Below, one piece after another: positions 17,107-28,566 of a stretch of 64,000 nt of DNA. The DNA comes from Candidatus Alistipes intestinigallinarum. GTDB lineage: Bacteria > Bacteroidota > Bacteroidia > Bacteroidales > Rikenellaceae. A model generated the notes under the pieces. That model had not been told where the DNA came from and did not search any database. It worked only from the letters and a program-made list of their open reading frames with translations. The position numbers and the translations under genes are program-made. Every line of letters begins with the position of its first letter. Positions within the stretch are counted from its first letter, which is position 1. Location of the stretch: contig DXDA01000036.1 in the NCBI GenBank assembly GCA_019115745.1, positions 29,601-93,600 of the forward strand, in the 5' to 3' direction.

Positions 17107-17191
17107 TCGAATTTGCAAATGAGAGTTGTGCGGGGATTCCGGCATCCCGATCGTTGCGGGGTGCCGGAATCCTCCCGATAACCGGAAACAA

Positions 17192-19537
17192 ATGACCATG
17201 AAACGAATCTGTTTGTTGATCGCAGCGCTTTGGGCAATGGCGGCCGTTGCCGAGGAGCGGGACTATACGCGCTACGTGCTGCCGATGGTTGGGACGGACA
17301 ATGAGTTCATCCTCTCCAACGGCAACGTGCTTCCCTTTGCGGCCCGCCCGTGGGGAATGAACCACTGGACGCCGCAGACGGCCGTGAACTGCGAGCCGTG
17401 GCAGTATGTCTACGATGCCACCCACATCACCGGACTCAAGCAAACCCACCAGCCGAGTCCGTGGGGCGGGGACTATGCGATGTTCTCGCTGATGCCGACC
17501 GTCGGGCCGATGAAGTTCCGGGAGGAGGAGCGCAAGAGCTGGTTTTCGCACAAGGCCGAGGAGTCGAAACCTCACTATTACCGGGTCTACCTGGCGGATT
17601 ACGACATTACGGCCGAGATGACGCCCTCGTCGCGGGGGTGCCTCATGCGCTTTACATATCCGCAGAGCGATGCGGCGAACGTCGTGATCGACGCCTTCGA
17701 CGAAGATTCCTACGTACAGGTGATTCCCGAGGAACGCAAGGTGATCGGCTATACGACGCAGTATTACCATAGCGGCAAGAAGGCTCCGGACAACTTCCGG
17801 AACTATTTCGTCATCGTGTTCGACACGCCGTTCGAGGAGTTTGCCGTCTGGCTCGGCAACGGTTTCGACCGGAAGGCCTGTGAGGCACAGGGTGGCCGGA
17901 CCGGTGTTGTTGTGCGTTTCAAGACCCGCCGGGGCCAGCAGGTCCAGGCCCGGATCGCCTCGTCGTTCATCAGTTACGAACAGGCCGAAATCTCGTTGAA
18001 GCGCGAAATCGGGGAGAAGAGCTTCGAGACGCTCTGCGAGGAGGGGCGTCGTGCGTGGAACGATTGCCTGAGCCGCTTCCGGGTGAAGGACGACCGGCTG
18101 GATGATCTGGACAACGTCCGGATGTTCTATACGGCTCTCTATCGGATGTTCCTCTATCCGCGGGAGTTCTTCGAATACGACGCTGCGGGGCAGATGATCC
18201 ACTACAGCCCCTTTACCGGAGAGGTTTGTCCGGGGCGGATGCACACCGATAACGGCTATTGGGATACGTTCCGTGCGGCGCGTCCGTTCTTCGACCTCTT
18301 CTTCCCCGACTGGCACGCCGGGTACATGGAGTCCGTGGCCAATACGTTCCGGGAGAGCGGCTGGCTGCCGGAGTGGGTCTCCCCGGGGCATATCGACGCG
18401 ATGATCGGTTCGAATTCGGCGTCGGTGATTGCTTCGGCCTACTTTGCGGGGGTTCCCGGCATGGATATGGAGACGCTCTGGGAGGGAATGTACAAGATGG
18501 CATACCATGCCCATCCGAAGTTGTCGTCCGTCGGTCGGGCCGGTGCGGAGGCTTACGACCGGCTGGGATACGTCCCGAACGACATCGGGGTCAAGGAGAG
18601 TGCTGCGCGGACACTCGAATATGCCTATGACGACTATTGCGTGTTGAAGGTGGCCGAGGCCCTGGGAAAGAGCCCCGAGATCATCGACACGTTCCGCAAA
18701 CGGGCCCTGAACTATCGGAATCTCTTCCACCGGCAGTTCAATCTGATGGCCGGGAAGGACTCTTCGGGACGCTTCCGGCCCGATTTCAACCCGCTGGCCT
18801 GGGGCGGAGACTTTACCGAGGGCAACAGTTGGCACTATACGTGGAGTGCCTTCCACGATCCGGCCGGACTGGCCGATCTGATGGGTGGCGACCGGGCCTT
18901 TATCCGGATGCTGGATTCGGTCTTCGAGCAGCCTCCTGTGTTCGACGTCTCGAACTACGGGGGACAGGTGATCCACGAGGTGCGCGAGATGCAGATCATG
19001 AATTTCGGACAGTACGCCCACGGCAACCAGCCGATCCAGCACATGATCTATCTTTACGACTGGACTTCGGAGCCGTGGAAGACGCAATACCATGTCCGGG
19101 ATGTGCTTGCGCGGTTGTACCGCCCGACGCCCGACGGCTATTGCGGCGACGAGGACAACGGTCAGACCTCGGCGTGGTATGTCTTTTCGGCGCTGGGCAT
19201 CTACCCGGTGAATCCCGTATCGGGAGAGTATGCGATCGGATCGCCGCTGTTCCGGGAGGTGGAGATCACGCTTCCCGACGGGAAGATCCTGACGATCTCG
19301 GCCCCGGAGAACGACGACCGCAACCGCTATGTGGACCGCGTCCGGGTCAACGGCAAGGCCTGCACGGTGAATTACCTGACGCGCGAACAACTTCGGCAGG
19401 GCGGGACGATCGAATTCCGGATGGCTGCCGAACCCAATACGAAACGGGGTGTCGACAAGGCATCGCGACCCTATTCGTTCTCCGAGGAGTACGGTGCGGC
19501 GGCCGGATCGGAGCAAGCTCCCGCCGCCTCATTTTAA
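17192..19537 (+). CDS. GH92-family glycosyl hydrolase (alpha-mannosidase-like)
   Basis: Signal peptide MKRICLLIAALWAMAAVA; YVLPMVGTDNEF; CGDEDNGQTSAWYVFSALGIYPVNP; YAIGSPLFREVEITLPDG. The ORF track starts at 17126, but the signal peptide supports 17192 or 17198. Confidence 0.9.
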   Translation: MTMKRICLLIAALWAMAAVAEERDYTRYVLPMVGTDNEFILSNGNVLPFAARPWGMNHWTPQTAVNCEPWQYVYDATHITGLKQTHQPSPWGGDYAMFSLMPTVGPMKFREEERKSWFSHKAEESKPHYYRVYLADYDITAEMTPSSRGCLMRFTYPQSDAANVVIDAFDEDSYVQVIPEERKVIGYTTQYYHSGKKAPDNFRNYFVIVFDTPFEEFAVWLGNGFDRKACEAQGGRTGVVVRFKTRRGQQVQARIASSFISYEQAEISLKREIGEKSFETLCEEGRRAWNDCLSRFRVKDDRLDDLDNVRMFYTALYRMFLYPREFFEYDAAGQMIHYSPFTGEVCPGRMHTDNGYWDTFRAARPFFDLFFPDWHAGYMESVANTFRESGWLPEWVSPGHIDAMIGSNSASVIASAYFAGVPGMDMETLWEGMYKMAYHAHPKLSSVGRAGAEAYDRLGYVPNDIGVKESAARTLEYAYDDYCVLKVAEALGKSPEIIDTFRKRALNYRNLFHRQFNLMAGKDSSGRFRPDFNPLAWGGDFTEGNSWHYTWSAFHDPAGLADLMGGDRAFIRMLDSVFEQPPVFDVSNYGGQVIHEVREMQIMNFGQYAHGNQPIQHMIYLYDWTSEPWKTQYHVRDVLARLYRPTPDGYCGDEDNGQTSAWYVFSALGIYPVNPVSGEYAIGSPLFREVEITLPDGKILTISAPENDDRNRYVDRVRVNGKACTVNYLTREQLRQGGTIEFRMAAEPNTKRGVDKASRPYSFSEEYGAAAGSEQAPAASF

Positions 19538-19550
19538 ATAGTTTCGTGTT

Positions 19551-20753
19551 ATGGAAATGAAAACTTCGGGGCGAGCCCAGGGTCGTATTTCGATGCTGCT
19601 GCCCGTTCTCTTCTGCTTTTTCATCATGGGTTTCGTCGACATCGTCGGCACGGCCGTGGCCAACATCAAGGATGTGCTGGGCCTGAGCTCGACGATGGCG
19701 GGGTTGTTGCCCAACTTCATCTTTATCTGGTTCCTCTTCTGCTCGATCCCGGCCGGGATGCTGATGCGCCGCTACGGCCGGAAGCGCATGGTGCTGGTCA
19801 GCAATCTGATCACGTGCGTCGCCATGCTGCTGCCGCTGGTGCTGATTTTCGGTGTGGCCAAACCGGGCCTCGACGTCTATATCCCGGTTTTCGTGCTGAT
19901 GGGTGTCGGGAACACGATCATCCAGGTGGCTCTGAATCCGCTGTTGACCAACGTCGTCTCGGGCGACCGGCTGGCAAGTGCCATGACGTTGGGACAGTTC
20001 GTGAAGGCGCTCTCCTCGCTGCTCGGGCCCCAGATCGTTCTGTTTGCCTCCGTGTGGCTCGGCGACTGGAACTACGTCTTCCCGATCTACGCGATTCTGA
20101 CGATTCTCTCCTCCGTATGGCTCTTCTTCACGCCGATTCCGCGTGAGGCGTCGGATCCGTCGGGAAGTGCTACCTTCGGCGGGGCCTTCGGGTTGCTGCG
20201 TGACGGCTATCTGCTGCTGATGTTCCTGGTTATCCTGCTGATCGTCGGCGTCGATGTCGGGCTGAACTTCTTCATCCCGGAGATCTTCCGGGAGGTCTTC
20301 GCTGCGGAGAATCCGGCGTCGATGAACACGCTCTATTTCGGAGCCCGTGCCCTGGGGTCGTTCGTGTGCGCCATGCTGCTAGTGCGCTTTTCAGCCCGCA
20401 AGATCTTCGTCTGGACGATGGTCGTGGCTATTGCCGCCTATCTCTGGATGATGTTCCTGGCCGGATCGGCCGGAACGGCCAGCGCCCGCATCATCTTCAT
20501 CCTGCTCTTCCTGCCGGTAGGGTTTGCGACGGGAAACGTCTTCTCGATCGCCTTTTCGTTCGCCATGCAGCATCGTCCGGAGAAGGCCGACCTGATCTCG
20601 TCGCTGCTGATCATGGGGGTGGCCGGAGGCGGAGCCGTGACACTCGTCACCGGCGCCCTGTCCGATGCGCTGGGTATTCTGGGTGGCATGTCCGTGCTGC
20701 TGGTTTGCCTGCTTTTCATCTTTGGCGTATCGCTCTACGCTGCCCGGCGATAG
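19551..20753 (+). CDS. MFS transporter, sugar-transporter-like
   Basis: Multi-pass hydrophobic protein with FIFIWFLFCSIPAGMLMRRYGRKRMV; follows the GH92 genes co-directionally. Confidence 0.85.
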   Translation: MEMKTSGRAQGRISMLLPVLFCFFIMGFVDIVGTAVANIKDVLGLSSTMAGLLPNFIFIWFLFCSIPAGMLMRRYGRKRMVLVSNLITCVAMLLPLVLIFGVAKPGLDVYIPVFVLMGVGNTIIQVALNPLLTNVVSGDRLASAMTLGQFVKALSSLLGPQIVLFASVWLGDWNYVFPIYAILTILSSVWLFFTPIPREASDPSGSATFGGAFGLLRDGYLLLMFLVILLIVGVDVGLNFFIPEIFREVFAAENPASMNTLYFGARALGSFVCAMLLVRFSARKIFVWTMVVAIAAYLWMMFLAGSAGTASARIIFILLFLPVGFATGNVFSIAFSFAMQHRPEKADLISSLLIMGVAGGGAVTLVTGALSDALGILGGMSVLLVCLLFIFGVSLYAARR

Positions 20754-20825: not shown

Positions 20826-21938
20826 CTATCGGTCGATCCGGTCGAGCTCCCGGTAGAGGTGCAGGAAGAAGGCGCGGTTGTCGGCCGAGACGTAGTGCAT
20901 CGACCGGGCCTTGGCCCGCGAGAAGGACTTGCAGTAGCGGAGGTAGTATTCCGGACGATTCTCGGGCGGTTCTCCGTTGGCCATCCAGTCCCACTTGGAC
21001 TCCGCCAGGTCGACGACGACGATCTTGTGTCGGGTCATGCGGCATCCGGCAGCGATGCGGACGTTTTGCGACATGGAGAGGGCCTTTTCGAAGATCATGG
21101 GCGAGGCGACCGAGGAGCCGACGGAGAGGTAGACGCCGTCTTCGAGTCGGCAGACGCTGTCGGTGAAGCAGAGGAAATCGACCTCGGCGGTCCGCCCGAC
21201 GGCGGCGAACGAGCAGAGCGGATGCATGAAGAAGACGTCGAGCCCGAACATCGGATGGACCGTCAGCGGAATCCCCGCCTGCCAGGCGGCATACTGAAGA
21301 CTGTACTCCCGGTACGGGAACTGGATGTCGATGCGCCCGGGGCGGAGGTTGTATTTTTCGATCTTTTCCAGCAGGTCGGCTGCGGCCGCCGAACGGTTCG
21401 GGTCCTCGGTGTTGGCGATGTCACGCTGCAGGAGCTCCGGGTTCGGAATGGTCAATCCCTGCTCTGCCAGGGTCCGGGCGATCGATTCGCCCATTCCGAG
21501 CCCTTGCCAGGCTCCGACGAGCAGGGCGAGGCTAATGGATCGGTCGGGCTCCTCCTGCAATCCGAAACTGCCGGCCGGGAGGCTGTTGCGCGTATCTTCG
21601 CAGGCGCAGCCGTGGAAGGCGAATTCCCAGTCGTCGGCGATCGAGGTGCCGGTAGTGGCCAGATGGGTCAGCCAGCCGCGGCGAACGAATTCTCCCACGA
21701 GCGGCCCCAGCCCGTTTCGAATCAGGTGGGTTCCGAAGGTCAGTATCCGGGAAGCCCCCTTTTCCCGGGCTTCGAGGAGGTCGCGGGCCGTGTTGCGGAT
21801 CGTCTCCATGGCCTCTTCGGGCAGCGGAGCCGGAGTCTGGTCGGGGCGGATCACCGCATCGGCGATCCGGACCTGTCTCGCGCATTCGGACAACGGCCGG
21901 AAGCGGATGTCGTCTCGGTTGAAACGGATGTTTTTCAT
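20826..21938 (-). CDS. Uncharacterised ~370 aa protein, family I cannot name, paralogue B
   Basis: Long ORF in coding context. Contains FGTHLIRNGLGPLVGEFVRRGWLTHLATTGTSIADDWEFAFHG, homologous to the next gene. Starts 1 nt after the stop of 21940..23052. Confidence 0.75.
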   Translation of the reverse strand: MKNIRFNRDDIRFRPLSECARQVRIADAVIRPDQTPAPLPEEAMETIRNTARDLLEAREKGASRILTFGTHLIRNGLGPLVGEFVRRGWLTHLATTGTSIADDWEFAFHGCACEDTRNSLPAGSFGLQEEPDRSISLALLVGAWQGLGMGESIARTLAEQGLTIPNPELLQRDIANTEDPNRSAAAADLLEKIEKYNLRPGRIDIQFPYREYSLQYAAWQAGIPLTVHPMFGLDVFFMHPLCSFAAVGRTAEVDFLCFTDSVCRLEDGVYLSVGSSVASPMIFEKALSMSQNVRIAAGCRMTRHKIVVVDLAESKWDWMANGEPPENRPEYYLRYCKSFSRAKARSMHYVSADNRAFFLHLYRELDRIDR

Positions 21939-21939
21939 G

Positions 21940-23052
21940 TCAGCTCATCTTGGAAAGTTCGTGGAAAAGTTTCAGCAGGAAGGCGCGGTTGTCGGCCGTC
22001 AGGAACTCCATGCCGAGCGGTTTGCTGCGGAGGAAGGTCTTCATGAAGGGGGTGTTGTACTCGGGGTTCTCCCGGGGCGGTTCGCCCTGTCGGAACCAGT
22101 CCCACCGCGGTTCGGCCAGGTCGACGACGGCAATGCGGTGGCGGTTGAGTTGCTCACCGTGCTGCAGCGCGACGTTCTGGGCCATGGAGAAGGCCTTCTC
22201 GAAGACCGTGGGCGACATGATCGCCGTCCCGACTGACAGATAAACACCGCCGTTGAGTTCGCTCACCGAATGGGCATAGGAGAGGAAATCGAGTTCGGCG
22301 GCGCGTCCGATGGCGGCTCCCGAGTTGAGGTGGTGCGTGTAGATGATGTCGTGGCCGAACATGGGGTGAGCCGTCGACGCGACGCCGAACTGGAAGGCTC
22401 CGGCTTGCAGGCTGTATTCCCGACAGGGGGTCGGGATCTCGTGCCAGCCCGCCTCCAGGCGGGCCTTGCGGATCACGTTCAACAGGTCTGCCGATGCGGC
22501 TTTCTGCGCGATGTCGCCATCCCGGATCAGGTTGATCAGCTCCTGCTCCGAGGGGATCCGCAGCCCCTGTTCCGCAATGGCCTTGCCGACCGAGGCGCCG
22601 TATCCGTATCCCTGCCATACACCGACGGCAATGGCCAGGTTGATCGAAAATCCGGTCTCCTCCCAGGTCCCGAAGCACCCTTCGGGCAGGTTTTCGTAGA
22701 CGGCTTCGCTGCTTTTGCCCTGGAAGGCGAACTCCCAGTCGTGAATGATCCCGGCTCCATTCGTTGCCAGGTGTGTGATCCAGCCCCGGCGGAGGTACTC
22801 GACCAGCAGCGGACCAAGTCCGTTTTTGATCGAGTGGGCTCCGAAGGCCAGGATGACCGGACGCCCGTTGGTGCGGGCTTCGAGAATGTATTCGGCCGTG
22901 CGGGCAATCATCTCGCAGGCCTCGGGACGCATCTCCGGATCGGGATCCGAGGGGTGGATGTAGATCTCGGCGATGTTCACCTTGTTTTTCCGCTCGGCCA
23001 GAGGCCGTTGGTGGATTTTGCTTCGGTCAAATTGGGGAAGACTCATGGTCAA
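21940..23052 (-). CDS. Uncharacterised ~370 aa protein, paralogue A
   Basis: FGAHSIKNGLGPLLVEYLRRGWITHLATNGAGIIHDWEFAFQGKSSEAV; 4-nt overlap with the stop of the upstream kinase-HAD gene. Confidence 0.75.
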   Translation of the reverse strand: MTMSLPQFDRSKIHQRPLAERKNKVNIAEIYIHPSDPDPEMRPEACEMIARTAEYILEARTNGRPVILAFGAHSIKNGLGPLLVEYLRRGWITHLATNGAGIIHDWEFAFQGKSSEAVYENLPEGCFGTWEETGFSINLAIAVGVWQGYGYGASVGKAIAEQGLRIPSEQELINLIRDGDIAQKAASADLLNVIRKARLEAGWHEIPTPCREYSLQAGAFQFGVASTAHPMFGHDIIYTHHLNSGAAIGRAAELDFLSYAHSVSELNGGVYLSVGTAIMSPTVFEKAFSMAQNVALQHGEQLNRHRIAVVDLAEPRWDWFRQGEPPRENPEYNTPFMKTFLRSKPLGMEFLTADNRAFLLKLFHELSKMS

Positions 23053-24953
23053 AGCTCTTTTTTCAACAGGAACGATGCGAGTTGGCGGTACTCCGTGAAG
23101 TCGGGGATGAGCAGGTCGGCACCGGCTCGGAGCAGCCGTTTGTGTTTGGATTCATTCCATCCGTAGCGGCGCACTTCGTGGCTCTGCACGCCGATGCCCA
23201 GGGCGCCGCAACTGCGTGCAACGCGCATCTCTACGGGCCCGTCGCCGAAGATGACCAGCTTTTCGGGATCGACCTGTTCCTGCTTCAGAATGTTGCGCAG
23301 CACCTGCCGCTTGGGGTCGTTGTGCATGTCGCCGACCGATCCGAAAATCCCGCCGGTGAAGCACTCCGCATATCCCAGCAGTTGCGCTTCGCGGAGTACA
23401 TCCTCCTGATCCGTTCCGCTGGCGAGGTAGATTTTCACACCGTTTGCGGCCAGCGTCCTGAGCAGCGCGATGCTCCCGGCGATGGTCACCTCCTCGGGGG
23501 ATAGCAGTTGCTTCCGGACCCGCTCCACGCGGTGTTCGATGAATGCCAGCAGGGCGTCGTTGTAGATGCGTTTGTACTCCTGGGGCGTACGGATCTCGGA
23601 CTCGGGAACGAGCCCCCATTTCCGGACCGCCTCGACGAGCATCACCATCTGGTTGATCGTCTGAATGCCGGTCGAGCGGACGATGAAGTCCCGGCAGTAG
23701 GCGCGAACCCGTGCCTTGAGCTCTTCGTCGTCGGCTTTGGAGCCCATGATTGCATCGATCATGCAGGCCTCCATGATCTCCTCCCAGCCTTCGCGGAGGG
23801 TTGAGATCGTGCCGTCGTGGTCGAATACGGCGTATTCGATGGCCGGGCGACGGCGGATTGTTTCGAGATCCGTGATGATCTCCGCCGTAAAGGGTTCGCT
23901 CCGGCGGACGGGATGCTCGTCGGCATTGTAGTTGAGGTCGCGGGTCTCTACGATTGCGCGGAGCTCCTCCGGAGAGCAGGTGCCGGTCTGGTGCAGTTTC
24001 TGGACGGTGACGCCGGCCACCGAGTTGCCGATGTGGAGGGCGGGACCGATCGGAAGCCCTGCAGCCAGCGCCAGGGCGAATCCGGAGAAGAAACTGTCTC
24101 CGGCACCGACCGTGTCGAGTTCGGTCAGGAGCGAGAGCCCTTCGGCCGAGGTGAACGTTCCGTCGTAGGCCGTCGCCCCGAGGTCGCCCCGGCTCACGAT
24201 CAGCGGATCTCCGGTCTGCTCGTGGTAACGGCGCATCAGCTCCCGGAGCTCGTCGGCCGGAACGTAGCTGCGCATGGGGTCGAGTTCGATGCCCAGTTCG
24301 GCTGCCACTTCATGCGTGTTGAGTTTGTGCCACATCCCCTTGAAGCGGCGCTGCATGGTCCGGGAGTCCACGATGAAGGGGACTTCGGGATGCTCTGCGG
24401 CCAGGCGGTTCAGCCCGTCGATGAATTCGTCGGTGTAGATCGTGTCTTCGAGCTGCTGGTTGATCAGCACGACATCGGCCTTGGCGACGGCTTCGGTAAC
24501 GCGGTCGAGCAGCAACCGGGCGGTCTCGGCCGAGATTCGGTTGCGGACGCCGGTGTCGATGCGTTCCTGCTCCTTGCTGTCTACGATCGGTTTGATGTAG
24601 GCCGGGGTCATCCACTGCTCGGACTGGACCGTCAGCGGCGCACCGGCGGGAAGTAACTGTTTCATCAGCCGACTCATCTCCGCTCCGAACATGTCCGGTC
24701 CGATGACGCCGATCGGTATGATCTCCCCGGCCCCCAGGGCGCAGAGGTTGGCGAAGACGTTTCCGGCTCCACCGAGCGATGTGGTCAGTTTGTGGGCGCG
24801 GCGGACCTGGAAACCGGTTTCGAGCGAGGGCTCCATGTCGGAACTGTTGACGTGGAAATAGACATCCAGGCAGAAGTCGCCGATCAGGACGAGGGTGGTC
24901 GTTTTCGCGGAAGCGAGCATGGTTTCGACCGCCTGATTGAGTTCTCGTGTCAT
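23049..24953 (-). CDS. Fusion of PfkB-family (HldE/RfaE-like) sugar kinase and HAD-family phosphatase
   Basis: PfkB motifs LIGDFCLDVYFHV, SLGGAGNVFANLCALGA, LDTVGAGDSFFSGFALALAAG. HAD motifs YAVFDHDGTIS, KIYLASGTDQED, KLVIFGDGPVEMRVA. Confidence 0.85.
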   Translation of the reverse strand: MTRELNQAVETMLASAKTTTLVLIGDFCLDVYFHVNSSDMEPSLETGFQVRRAHKLTTSLGGAGNVFANLCALGAGEIIPIGVIGPDMFGAEMSRLMKQLLPAGAPLTVQSEQWMTPAYIKPIVDSKEQERIDTGVRNRISAETARLLLDRVTEAVAKADVVLINQQLEDTIYTDEFIDGLNRLAAEHPEVPFIVDSRTMQRRFKGMWHKLNTHEVAAELGIELDPMRSYVPADELRELMRRYHEQTGDPLIVSRGDLGATAYDGTFTSAEGLSLLTELDTVGAGDSFFSGFALALAAGLPIGPALHIGNSVAGVTVQKLHQTGTCSPEELRAIVETRDLNYNADEHPVRRSEPFTAEIITDLETIRRRPAIEYAVFDHDGTISTLREGWEEIMEACMIDAIMGSKADDEELKARVRAYCRDFIVRSTGIQTINQMVMLVEAVRKWGLVPESEIRTPQEYKRIYNDALLAFIEHRVERVRKQLLSPEEVTIAGSIALLRTLAANGVKIYLASGTDQEDVLREAQLLGYAECFTGGIFGSVGDMHNDPKRQVLRNILKQEQVDPEKLVIFGDGPVEMRVARSCGALGIGVQSHEVRRYGWNESKHKRLLRAGADLLIPDFTEYRQLASFLLKKEL

Positions 24954-25222: not shown

Positions 25223-25230
25223 TATATTTG
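25223..25230 (+). promoter_or_regulatory. Candidate -7 element for the corrinoid cassette
   Basis: TATATTTG matches TAnnTTTG ~50 nt before the ATG at 25281. No clear -33 TTTG seen. Confidence 0.4.
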
Positions 25231-25280: not shown

Positions 25281-25916
25281 ATGACAAACTTGAATGAACT
25301 TTACGAAGCGATCCTGAACGGAAAACTCGAACAGGCGCAGGAAGTGACCCGGCAAGCCATTGCCGAAGGTGTCGATCCGCAGGCCATCATCAATAACTAT
25401 ATGGTGAAGGGCATGGAGGAGATCGGAGCCCGTTTCGAGGCGGGCAAGGCCTTTGTGCCGAATCTGCTGATGAGCGCCCGTGCGATGAAGGGCTCGCTCG
25501 AACTGCTCAAGCCGCTGCTCAAGGGTGACCGGAGCTCGTCGGCCGGCAAGGTCGTTATCGGAACGGTGAAGGGCGACCTGCACGACATCGGCAAGAATCT
25601 CGTGGCTTCGATGCTCGAAGGCTGCGGCTTCGAGGTCATCAACCTCGGTGTCGACGTGTCGAGCGAGAAGTTCATCGATGCGGCCCGTGCCAACAACGCC
25701 GATATCATCTGCATGTCGGCGCTCCTGACCACGACGATGAACTACATGAAGGAGGTTGTTGCGGCCGTTGAGGCATCGGGCCTCAAGGGGAAGGTGAAGA
25801 CCATGGTCGGAGGTGCGCCTCTGAACAACGATTTCGCCATGTCCATTGGTGCGGACGGTTACAGCTCGAATGCCAACGATGCCGTCGCTCTGGCGCGTCG
25901 GCTGGTAAATGCCTGA
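25281..25916 (+). CDS. Corrinoid (cobalamin-binding) methyltransferase protein, MtaC/MtbC-like
   Basis: N-terminal helical cap plus B12-binding domain with the DxHxxG signature (GDLHDIGKNLVASMLEGCGFEVINLGVDV) and MVGGAPLN. Confidence 0.9.
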   Translation: MTNLNELYEAILNGKLEQAQEVTRQAIAEGVDPQAIINNYMVKGMEEIGARFEAGKAFVPNLLMSARAMKGSLELLKPLLKGDRSSSAGKVVIGTVKGDLHDIGKNLVASMLEGCGFEVINLGVDVSSEKFIDAARANNADIICMSALLTTTMNYMKEVVAAVEASGLKGKVKTMVGGAPLNNDFAMSIGADGYSSNANDAVALARRLVNA

Positions 25917-25922
25917 CGGAAT

Positions 25923-26618
25923 ATGTTCACGCGGTCCGTATCGTTCTCCGAACTGGAGATTGCCTGGGAGAACATCTGGCAGGAGAGCGGCTGCGAGGGG
26001 TATGTCCCTGATGCTGCGACGCGTCAGTTGTTCGACGAGGTGGCCGGAGAGATCGCACGCACGTGCCGTCCGTCATACGGGTATGTGTCGTATCCCAACG
26101 AGGGGAGCGACAAGACGACGCTGCACTTGGGCGGACGTAGTCTCCGGGCCGGCGGCATCATCAGCCGCTATCTTTACGAGGCGGATGAATTCGTACTCTT
26201 CGTGGCCACGGCGGGCCGGGATTTCGAAGCCTTGCAACGCCGCTTTCACGAGGAGGGAGACATCGTCAAGCAATATTTTGCCGACATCATCGGTTCGGAG
26301 ATCGCCGAGGCGTTGGGCCGCCTGCTCTCCCGGGAACTGGAGGCTGCCCAGGCGGCCCGCGGCTTCCGGATCAGCAACAGCTACAGTCCGGGTTATTGCG
26401 GCTGGCCGGTCAGCGAACAACAGATTCTCTTCTCGCTGCTGCCGCCCGCCCCGTGCGGAATTACGCTGACGGATTCGAGCCTGATGCTGCCGATCAAGTC
26501 GATCAGCGGCGTGATTGCCGTCGGCACGCGGATCGAGAAGAAACCCTACGGGTGTGCGATCTGCGGAAAGAAGGATTGTTACAAGAACAGACTGCGCAAA
26601 AAACAGGAAAAACAATGA
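25923..26618 (+). CDS. MetH activation-domain-like (vitamin B12-dependent methionine synthase activation) protein with C-terminal Cys cluster
   Basis: RISNSYSPGYCGWPVSEQQILFSLLP resembles the SAM-binding region of the MetH activation domain; C-terminus YGCAICGKKDCYKNR. Lies between the corrinoid protein and UroD-like methyltransferase genes. Confidence 0.8.
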   Translation: MFTRSVSFSELEIAWENIWQESGCEGYVPDAATRQLFDEVAGEIARTCRPSYGYVSYPNEGSDKTTLHLGGRSLRAGGIISRYLYEADEFVLFVATAGRDFEALQRRFHEEGDIVKQYFADIIGSEIAEALGRLLSRELEAAQAARGFRISNSYSPGYCGWPVSEQQILFSLLPPAPCGITLTDSSLMLPIKSISGVIAVGTRIEKKPYGCAICGKKDCYKNRLRKKQEKQ

Positions 26619-27619
26619 ATACATCAGCATGGATTGATTCGCTCATCGGGGCGAAGCAGGTGGCTGCGGTTCCGATCATGACGCACCCCGGGATCGAGCT
26701 GTTGGGACTGCAGGTACGGGATGCCGTGATGGACGGACAACGCCATTTCGAGGCTATCGAGGCCCTCAACAAGCGCTTCCCGCAGTCGGCGGCGTGTACC
26801 GTGATCATGGATCTGACGGTCGAGGCCGAGGCGTTTGGCGCCGAGTTGCACGTCACGGAGAACGAGGTTCCGAGTGTGGTCGGGCGCCTGGTTTCTTCCT
26901 ACGAGGAGGTGTGTGCCCTGCAGGTGCCGTCGCTCGACGCGGCGCGCGTGCCCGAATACCTCAAGGCCAACCGTCTGGCGGCCTCCCGCATCGCCAAGCC
27001 GGTTTTTGCGGGGTGTATCGGCCCCTATTCGCTGGCCGGGCGCCTTTACGACATGACGGAGATCATGATGGCAATCTATACCGAGCCGGAGACGGTCGAG
27101 GCGCTTCTGGAGAAGTGCACGGCGTTCATCCTTTCGTATTGCCGGGCTCTGAAGGATTGCGGCGTGGCCGGCGTGATCATTGCGGAACCCGCGGCGGGAT
27201 TGCTGCCGGACGAGGATTGCCGCCGTTACTCGTCGGTCTACGTCCGGCGCATCATCGAGGCGGTGCAGGACGATACCTTCGCGGTGATTCTCCACAACTG
27301 CGGTAATGCGGGTCACTGTACGGGAGCGATGGTTGCGACCGGAGCGAAGGGCTACCACTTCGGCAACCGGATCGATATGCTGGATGCCTTGCGTGACTGC
27401 CCGGCCGATACGTTGGTCATGGGCAATCTGGATCCGGTCGGGATCTTCAAGAATGCCACCCCCGAGCAGGTGGAGACCGCGACGCGGGAGTTGCTGGAGC
27501 GGGCCGCCGGGTATCCGAATTTCGTCATCTCCACCGGATGTGATACGCCGCCGGAGATTCCCATGGCGAATATCGAGGCGTTTTACCGGGCGGTCGATGC
27601 ATTTAATGCCAAGCGTTAG
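26615..27619 (+). CDS. Uroporphyrinogen decarboxylase-family methyltransferase (MtaA/CmuA-like)
   Basis: UroD-fold sequence with AVILHNCGNAGH (His-x-Cys-Gly type metal site) and YHFGNRIDMLDAL; ATGA overlap with the upstream stop. The ORF track start at 26396 lies inside the upstream gene. Confidence 0.85.
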   Translation: MNTSAWIDSLIGAKQVAAVPIMTHPGIELLGLQVRDAVMDGQRHFEAIEALNKRFPQSAACTVIMDLTVEAEAFGAELHVTENEVPSVVGRLVSSYEEVCALQVPSLDAARVPEYLKANRLAASRIAKPVFAGCIGPYSLAGRLYDMTEIMMAIYTEPETVEALLEKCTAFILSYCRALKDCGVAGVIIAEPAAGLLPDEDCRRYSSVYVRRIIEAVQDDTFAVILHNCGNAGHCTGAMVATGAKGYHFGNRIDMLDALRDCPADTLVMGNLDPVGIFKNATPEQVETATRELLERAAGYPNFVISTGCDTPPEIPMANIEAFYRAVDAFNAKR

Positions 27620-27640: not shown

Positions 27641-27679
27641 CGAAGTCTCCTGCCTTTCCGGGCGGGAGGCTTCGTTTTT
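27641..27679 (+). terminator. Intrinsic terminator after the corrinoid cassette
   Basis: CGAAGTCTCCTGCC...GGCGGGAGGCTTCG followed by TTTTT, stem with G-T wobble pairs. Confidence 0.65.
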
Positions 27680-28566
27680 CAGAGGCGGAAGTCCTGTTTG
27701 CGGAATTCGGAGGCCGAGATGCCCACGATGTGCTTGAACGTGCGGGAGAAGTGGTCGGCATTCCCGAATCCGAGTTTTGCGGCGATCTGGGAGATGGTCA
27801 TGGAGGTCTTCAGGAGATAGATGGTCGCCTTGTTGATCTTCAGGTGGATGAAGTAGTCGATCGGGGCCATCGAGGTTTGTCGGACGAACTGCCGGTAGAG
27901 ATACGAGGGACTGTATCCGGCGAATCGGGCGATTTCGTCTATGGTGAGTTTGCGGTCGATGTTCTCGTTCATGAAGTGGGTGACGCGGTTGACAATCCCT
28001 TCGATGTGGCGGGGCTGTTCGTGGACGGTCCCGAAGAGCTTCATGAAGCGGAACGAGGCGATGAAGTGCGCGAAGGCGAGGTTGGCATAGTTGAGGCGGT
28101 CGAGCGAGAGCGTCCCGCACAGGACGGCATAGAGGTTCTCGAAGAGTTCGATGCGTTGTTCGATGCGGATGTGCACCGAGGGCGGGACGGTGATCGGGGA
28201 CTCCATGTCGCGGGCGAAGATCTTGCCCTTCTCGCCGTTGAACCGGATCCAGTAGATGCTCCAGGGGTCGTCGTTTTCGGCCCCGTATGCGAGCGGGGTT
28301 TTCCGGGGCAGGACGATGTATTGGTTGGCCTTGACGGGGATGGTCTGCTGCCGGATCCGGATGAACCCGCTTCCCCAGACGCAGTAGATAAAGATATAGG
28401 CATCGTCGCCGTTCGGACGTTCGACCAGGTGGTGCCGGGCGTGTGCCATGTATCCCAGCGAGTGAATGTAGAGATCCCCGCTCAGCGGATCGTCCTGGAT
28501 CAGATCCAGAAACTGCTGAGGAATGACGATTCGGCGTTCGCCGGGGAAACCGGTTTCGATACCCAT
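27679..28566 (-). CDS. AraC-family transcriptional regulator
   Basis: N-terminal cupin-like sensing region; C-terminal HTH RKLTIDEIARFAGYSPSYLYRQFVRQ...ISQIAAKLGFGNADHFSRTFKHIVGISASEFRK. Confidence 0.9.
   Translation of the reverse strand: MGIETGFPGERRIVIPQQFLDLIQDDPLSGDLYIHSLGYMAHARHHLVERPNGDDAYIFIYCVWGSGFIRIRQQTIPVKANQYIVLPRKTPLAYGAENDDPWSIYWIRFNGEKGKIFARDMESPITVPPSVHIRIEQRIELFENLYAVLCGTLSLDRLNYANLAFAHFIASFRFMKLFGTVHEQPRHIEGIVNRVTHFMNENIDRKLTIDEIARFAGYSPSYLYRQFVRQTSMAPIDYFIHLKINKATIYLLKTSMTISQIAAKLGFGNADHFSRTFKHIVGISASEFRKQDFRL

Follow-up and report, generated by a model that had tools for sequence, protein, structure and literature searches.

Consecutive genes for a corrinoid protein, a MetH-like activator and an MtaA-like methyltransferase in Bacteroidales: a candidate module for O-methyl-sugar demethylation

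Several described systems move methyl groups from a substrate methyltransferase (MT1) to a corrinoid protein and on to an acceptor through a second methyltransferase (MT2). In the MtaB-MtaC-MtaA and MtbA systems of Methanosarcina, the corrinoid protein is combined with a UroD-fold MT2 carrying an H-x-C...C zinc motif, the acceptor of these soluble methyltransferases is CoM, and the activator is RamA. The OdmB/VdmB/MtvB and CdmBCA systems have a UroD-superfamily MT1 that feeds a small corrinoid protein, a pterin-binding H4folate methyltransferase as MT2, and the activase RACE (PMC13222342). The type 1 mlp clusters of anaerobic bacteria combine a corrinoid protein with the His-Cys-Cys MtaA-like proteins Mlp2 and Mlp3 and a RACE activase, and they point to sulfur and selenium compounds, Mlp2 acting on selenide (Kountz and Balskus, PMC10418091). 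In the split methionine synthase of Phaeobacter inhibens, the MtbC-like corrinoid protein is separate and activation can be the task of a free protein (PMC5764234). A cytochrome P450 acting on 6-O-methyl-galactose strips the O-methyl group from a sugar for catabolism, but does so in an oxygen-dependent manner; anaerobic demethylation of methyl-galactose was stated to be unexplained, with a mechanism still to be discovered (PMC12316285). No paper on corrinoid-dependent demethylation of sugars was found in the open-access literature searched.

Here, we examined a 64,000-nucleotide stretch of the Candidatus Alistipes intestinigallinarum genome (the window; positions 29601-93600 of contig C17, in an assembly of 80 contigs that is 89% complete). 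As the initial annotation had recognized, genes for a corrinoid protein (CP), a MetH-activation-like protein (ACT) and a UroD-type methyltransferase (MT2) lie consecutively on one strand as three intact ORFs (Table 1). CP and ACT are separated by 6 nt, and ACT and MT2 overlap by 4 nt (ATGA) when the ATG at 26615 is taken as the MT2 start rather than the longer mechanical ORF from 26396. CP is a cap and B12-binding protein with a DLHDIG motif; 1y80 is its best solved relative, and the nearest NCBIfam model is MtgC/MtbC-like, with a score below the cut-off. The sequence TATATTTG at window positions 25223-25230, some 50 nt upstream of the CP start codon, matches the Bacteroidetes -7 promoter element TAnnTTTG.

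Table 1. Window features discussed in the text (positions are those of the window)
Feature	Position	Strand	Length and matches
GH92 glycosidase	17126..19537	+	PF07971 (6.8e-155)
MFS sugar transporter, adjoining GH92	19551..20753	+	PF07690
CP, corrinoid (methyl-carrier) protein	25281..25916	+	211 aa; PF02607 (4.5e-23), PF02310 (9.7e-30); PDB 1y80 (1e-57)
ACT, free-standing MetH-activation-like protein, putative reductive activator	25923..26618	+	231 aa; PF02965 (2.2e-12)
MT2, UroD/MtaA-like methyltransferase, predicted methyl-corrinoid:thiol	26615..27619	+	334 aa; PF01208 (7e-54)
AraC-type regulator, next to MT2	27679..28566	-	PF00165, PF12833, PF02311

The module resembles the Methanosarcina systems in its corrinoid protein and UroD-fold MT2, but its acceptor is presumably not CoM and its activator is MetH-like rather than RamA. 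Whereas the OdmB/VdmB/MtvB and CdmBCA systems use a pterin-binding MT2 and RACE, here the MT2 is of the UroD type, the activator is MetH-like and the MT1s are linked to sugar genes; among the components of H4folate-dependent three-component O-demethylases, the UroD-type MT1 has counterparts in the genome (three predicted O-type proteins) and the pterin-binding MT2 has none. Compared with the type 1 mlp clusters, in which Mlp2, Mlp3, a corrinoid protein and RACE are encoded together, the module has one MtaA-like protein, no RACo and a sugar context. Compared with the P. inhibens enzyme, it has no folate or homocysteine part.

ACT scored 47.4 bits against PF02965 (cut-off, 25), the match covering its C-terminal part. 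Its AlphaFold model (pLDDT 92.6) superimposed on the Thermotoga maritima activation protein 1j6r with a Z score of 22.5 (rmsd 2.0, 193 residues aligned), and RACo (RACo_C_ter domain) was found neither in the 89% complete genome nor in the module, which bears out the proposal that the activator resembles the MetH reactivation domain and not RamA. ACT retains the PGY motif and an invariant Glu. Five residues ahead of the Tyr, where an Arg is expected as an AdoMet ligand, the window protein has Ser and many homologues have Arg, and the N-terminal DW..FF..W motif of MetH was not found in ACT in the alignment. Furthermore, ACT reaches past the MetH-like fold with a Y-x-C-x2-C-x4-C segment, whose cysteines (C211, C214 and C219) are conserved without exception in 28 homologues. 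At least 90% of these also have C159, in the SPGYC loop, and the ACT of one Alistipes locus (L054) has a Cys four positions earlier in place of a C159 equivalent. We infer that ACT may be the physiological activator of CP and that its Cys set may form a metal or Fe-S site. Nitroreductases appeared as relatives of ACT in Foldseek at low scores only and were not accepted. In the related locus L029 (8274-9854, + strand), a CobW/G3E GTPase is fused to a MetH-activation-like domain (526 aa) behind UroD, CP, MT2 and a small cupin-like gene, and in L048 (11775-14105, + strand), a large flavin/Fe-S oxidoreductase (Fer4_20, Pyr_redox_2, DHODB Fe-S) directly follows MT2 and ACT and could possibly be an electron donor for the activator.

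MT2 scored 132 bits against the MtaA/CmuA model (TIGR01463; family cut-off, 235), making it a relative rather than a member by the curated cut-off, and it also fell below the cut-offs of the MtaA and MtbA models. Its score against the hemE equivalog model was 74 bits (cut-off, 303 bits); this score and the zinc motif rule out a HemE identity, and the earlier description of the protein as MtaA-like holds. It matched PDB 4ay7 at 8.5e-16, and its predicted zinc ligands (H227, C229 and C309) align with the LHICGN and GC motifs of that structure. The H-x-C...C set was invariant in 10 of 10 orthologues, the nine others being 47-62% identical to the window protein. In contrast, the third Cys was kept in none of the 42 MT1-like UroD proteins compared, being replaced by His in most and by Asn or another residue in the rest, and the second Cys is Asp in some. 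Within the UroD superfamily, His-Cys-Cys is the mark of S-methyltransferases, and O-methyltransferases replace one or both Cys (PMC10418091). Because the ligand sets differ in this way, we predict a thiol as the target of MT2 and oxygen ethers as those of its paralogues in the same genome.

Besides MT2, the genome encodes three UroD proteins, all among the 42 and all with the third Cys replaced, the O-demethylase pattern. Two lie on contig C17 (27834-29069 and 23313-24380), the first 0.5 kb and the second 5-6 kb upstream of the window, among genes for LacI, a GmhA-like isomerase, a ROK kinase, GH92 and a GxGYxYP hydrolase (the GH92 label, of L008:2999-5239, was given from its sequence and not by a family scan); the third is on another contig (C72:17574-18740). 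The earlier statement that no MT1 lies in the window is thus literally true, but UroD-type candidates for this role occur just before its start and on C72. An MT1 matched to an established substrate, named earlier as a refuting finding, is not among these candidates. A complete MetH gene is present on contig C37 with MetF behind it (recognized by eye from sequence), which weakens the idea that the module replaces a missing methionine synthase. Searches of the 89% complete assembly found no MetE, no MtgB/MttB or MtaB, and no MtrH or separate folate methyltransferase, and the only carriers of a Pterin_bind domain were MetH and a FolP-like frame of 289 aa. Because FolP and MetH are the only pterin-binding proteins, the folate-independent route suggested earlier is plausible.

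The source genome is tied to related loci by several shared genes. The C72 UroD gene is followed by MFS transporter and aldo-keto reductase genes, and the same trio directly precedes CP, ACT and MT2 in the Alistipes metagenome-assembled genome (MAG) L054 (71, 66 and 56% identical, respectively). The GH92 protein of the window has a 62% homologue (L043|10) that is co-operonic with MT1, CP and ACT, and the adjoining MFS transporter has a 63% homologue (L042|5) beside MT2 and CP, where a 68% homologue of the C17 LacI is also found. The AraC-type gene recurs with 53-58% identity in four related loci (L040, L041, L043 and L052) and probably encodes the regulator of the module. With no MT1 adjacent in the window, the proposed link of its module to an MT1 rests on these homologous loci. 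Between the transporter and CP, the window also encodes two members of the GSU2086 family in tandem (20826-21938 and 21940-23052, - strand; both score above the cut-off of NCBIfam NF052581) and, next to them, an HldE-like PfkB kinase that carries a fused HAD phosphatase (23049-24953); these three genes, divergent from the module, were not counted as parts of the module because no homologue with at least 35% identity occurs in the 80 module loci described below.

An MT2-alignment scan of 84,980 species genomes gave 583 matches, and the best 80 of these were taken as loci; all 80 are from Bacteroidota and, by title, mostly from Bacteroidales. Although many contigs are short, CP (free or fused) was present in 67 of these loci, ACT in 54 and an MT1 or the protein family U30 in 55, and the recurrence of CP and ACT indicates that the arrangement is not due to chance. 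Unrelated genes also occur among the neighbors. U30 has no Pfam match; its model has a UroD fold, with a Z score of 17.4 to MtaA 4ay7 (rmsd 4.5, 284 residues), and HemE structures score like MtaA against it. Fourteen of the 80 loci have a U30-CP fusion, direct in 10 of them and in four (L059, L066, L094 and L110) with a homocysteine S-methyltransferase domain (PF02574) in between; this domain scored 8e-90 and 2e-87 in the two fusions scanned with Pfam, and the other fusions are 52-62% identical to that of L059. Unlike the P. inhibens system, these fusions have a UroD-fold MT1 in the place of the folate part. One genome (G111, 86% complete) contains such a three-part fusion, and no MT2 was found in it.

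In two loci (L098 and L111), MtaB itself is the module partner, and in L098, the one inspected, the order is CP-MT2-MtaB-CobW GTPase-RACo, with RACo replacing ACT. By gene content, the MT1 is exchanged in both loci and the activator also in L098. These two loci come from Bacteroidia MAGs with an MtaB-type methanol methyltransferase and MtaC-like and MtaA-like partners, and methanol use by these systems is possible. The H-x-C...C motif, the partnership with MtaB, and the constancy of the protein beside varying MT1s point to the window UroD being an MT2 (methyl-corrinoid:thiol) enzyme. The same features speak against the initial suggestion that it is itself a novel demethylase. UroD relatives such as CmuA and CdmB can serve as MT1, the window has no adjacent MT1, and in the four three-part fusions a homocysteine methyltransferase domain already accompanies MT1 and CP; even so, with its thiol-type ligands and its pairing with MtaB, we regard it as improbable that the window UroD is the substrate demethylase and that service of the acceptor falls to MetH or another protein. 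A module of CP, activator and MT2 working with an MT1 encoded elsewhere, the option that the initial annotation had also raised, is very probable given the three O-type UroD proteins in the genome and the MT1 partners in homologous loci.

The partners of the module are largely genes for sugar utilization. In the 29 U30 loci, GH31, a family that includes α-xylosidases, was in the operon in 23 and GH141 in 21. The founder of GH141, BT1002, releases 2-O-Me-Xyl-α1,3-Fuc (2-O-methyl-D-xylose-α1,3-L-fucose) from chain A of RG-II (PMC10154630). L-fucose isomerase and a mutarotase are added in L066 and L071, and some loci have pentose-pathway genes. At the MT1 loci, the partners include rhaM with RhaT (L085 and L118), GH115 (L097), GH92 (L043) and GH38 (L053). 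Among 99 sampled operon partners, SSF transporters occurred 20 times, GH31 13, MFS 10 and rhaM 5; among 71 distal genes of the same loci, these four were absent from the families listed, and no family occurred more than twice. An MT2 orthologue (at least 47% identity) was present in 12 of 198 genomes of the order; O-type MT1s were found in 10 of these 12 and in 19 of the other 186 (p = 5e-8), and U30 in 5 and 2, respectively (p = 6e-6), the p values being indicative only, because the genomes are non-independent and some of the sequences behind the MT1 model were module neighbors, which biases the test upward. From these contexts, methyl sugars are the likely methyl donors, that is, the substrates of the MT1s.

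Methoxylated aromatic aglycones of plant glycosides could also be considered as donors, since UroD-superfamily MT1s for methoxyaromatics exist (PMC13222342) and glycosidases lie near the module. We consider O-demethylation of this OdmB/VdmB/MtvB-like kind improbable, because the neighbors are of monosaccharide catabolism (mutarotases, RhaT, FucI, the GmhA-like isomerase, the ROK kinase, and GH141, GH31, GH115 and GH92) and the pterin-binding MT2 of those systems is absent here. Salvage of methyl-sulfur or methyl-selenium compounds, in which UroD proteins would shuttle methyl groups between S/Se compounds and thiols via CP as in type 1 mlp clusters, is a little less improbable but still unlikely. 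It agrees with the His-Cys-Cys set of the window UroD, with the selenide activity of Mlp2, and with the second UroD of L029, which also carries H-x-C...C; it is at odds with the loss of the third Cys in most partner UroD proteins, with operon partners that are sugar transporters and glycosidases rather than sulfur or selenium genes, and with the absence of RACo from the genome. In L065, L070, L078, L080, L055, L058 and L067, the module also adjoins another MT2-like UroD, which scores about 90-160 bits with the MT2 model; these additional proteins are possibly of an S/Se type like Mlp.

We therefore favor, as fairly probable, a common module of CP, activator and MT2 that serves several O-methyl-sugar demethylases, with homocysteine as the likely acceptor. 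Its architecture is well supported by what the sequences show, namely the protein families, zinc ligands of the MT2 type, MT1 partners that recur, gene fusions, and neighborhoods of sugar genes. Glycosidases would release O-methylated monosaccharides, and separate UroD-superfamily MT1s, whose genes accompany those for sugar catabolism on C72 and on the upstream part of C17, would move the ether methyl group to Co(I)-CP and free the sugar. CP would hold the methyl group on its cobalamin, MT2 would transfer it to a thiol, most likely homocysteine to give methionine, and ACT would return oxidized CP to Co(I). Homocysteine is modestly favored as the acceptor because of the fusions of U30, homocysteine methyltransferase and CP. 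On the other hand, the genome already has MetH, and the demand for methionine may be too small for the methyl flux of growth on sugars. Since the homocysteine domain occurs beside MT2 in four loci, MT2 could also serve another thiol (e.g., sulfide) or another step.

RG-II, glucuronoxylan, red-algal porphyran and the glycans of invertebrates or fungi contain O-methyl sugars. We give roughly even weight, for and against, to the wider proposal that gut Bacteroidales have a corrinoid pathway in which several UroD-superfamily enzymes, U30 among them, remove the methyl group from O-methylated monosaccharides found in dietary and host-type glycans (e.g., the 2-O-methyl-xylose of RG-II), and in which the methyl group passes to homocysteine, making a sugar ether a folate-independent methyl donor for methionine. 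In this proposal, re-reduction of the carrier would fall to an activator that derives from MetH and has acquired a cluster of Cys residues, which may hold Fe-S. The proposal bears on a question left open in the literature, namely how anaerobes demethylate methyl-galactose, and this question can be addressed in tractable strains, since Phocaeicola vulgatus ATCC 8482, Bacteroides xylanisolvens XB1A and B. salyersiae all carry the module. If the proposal is true, vitamin B12 would be required for the use of methylated glycans, and dietary fiber would be linked to methionine synthesis in the gut.
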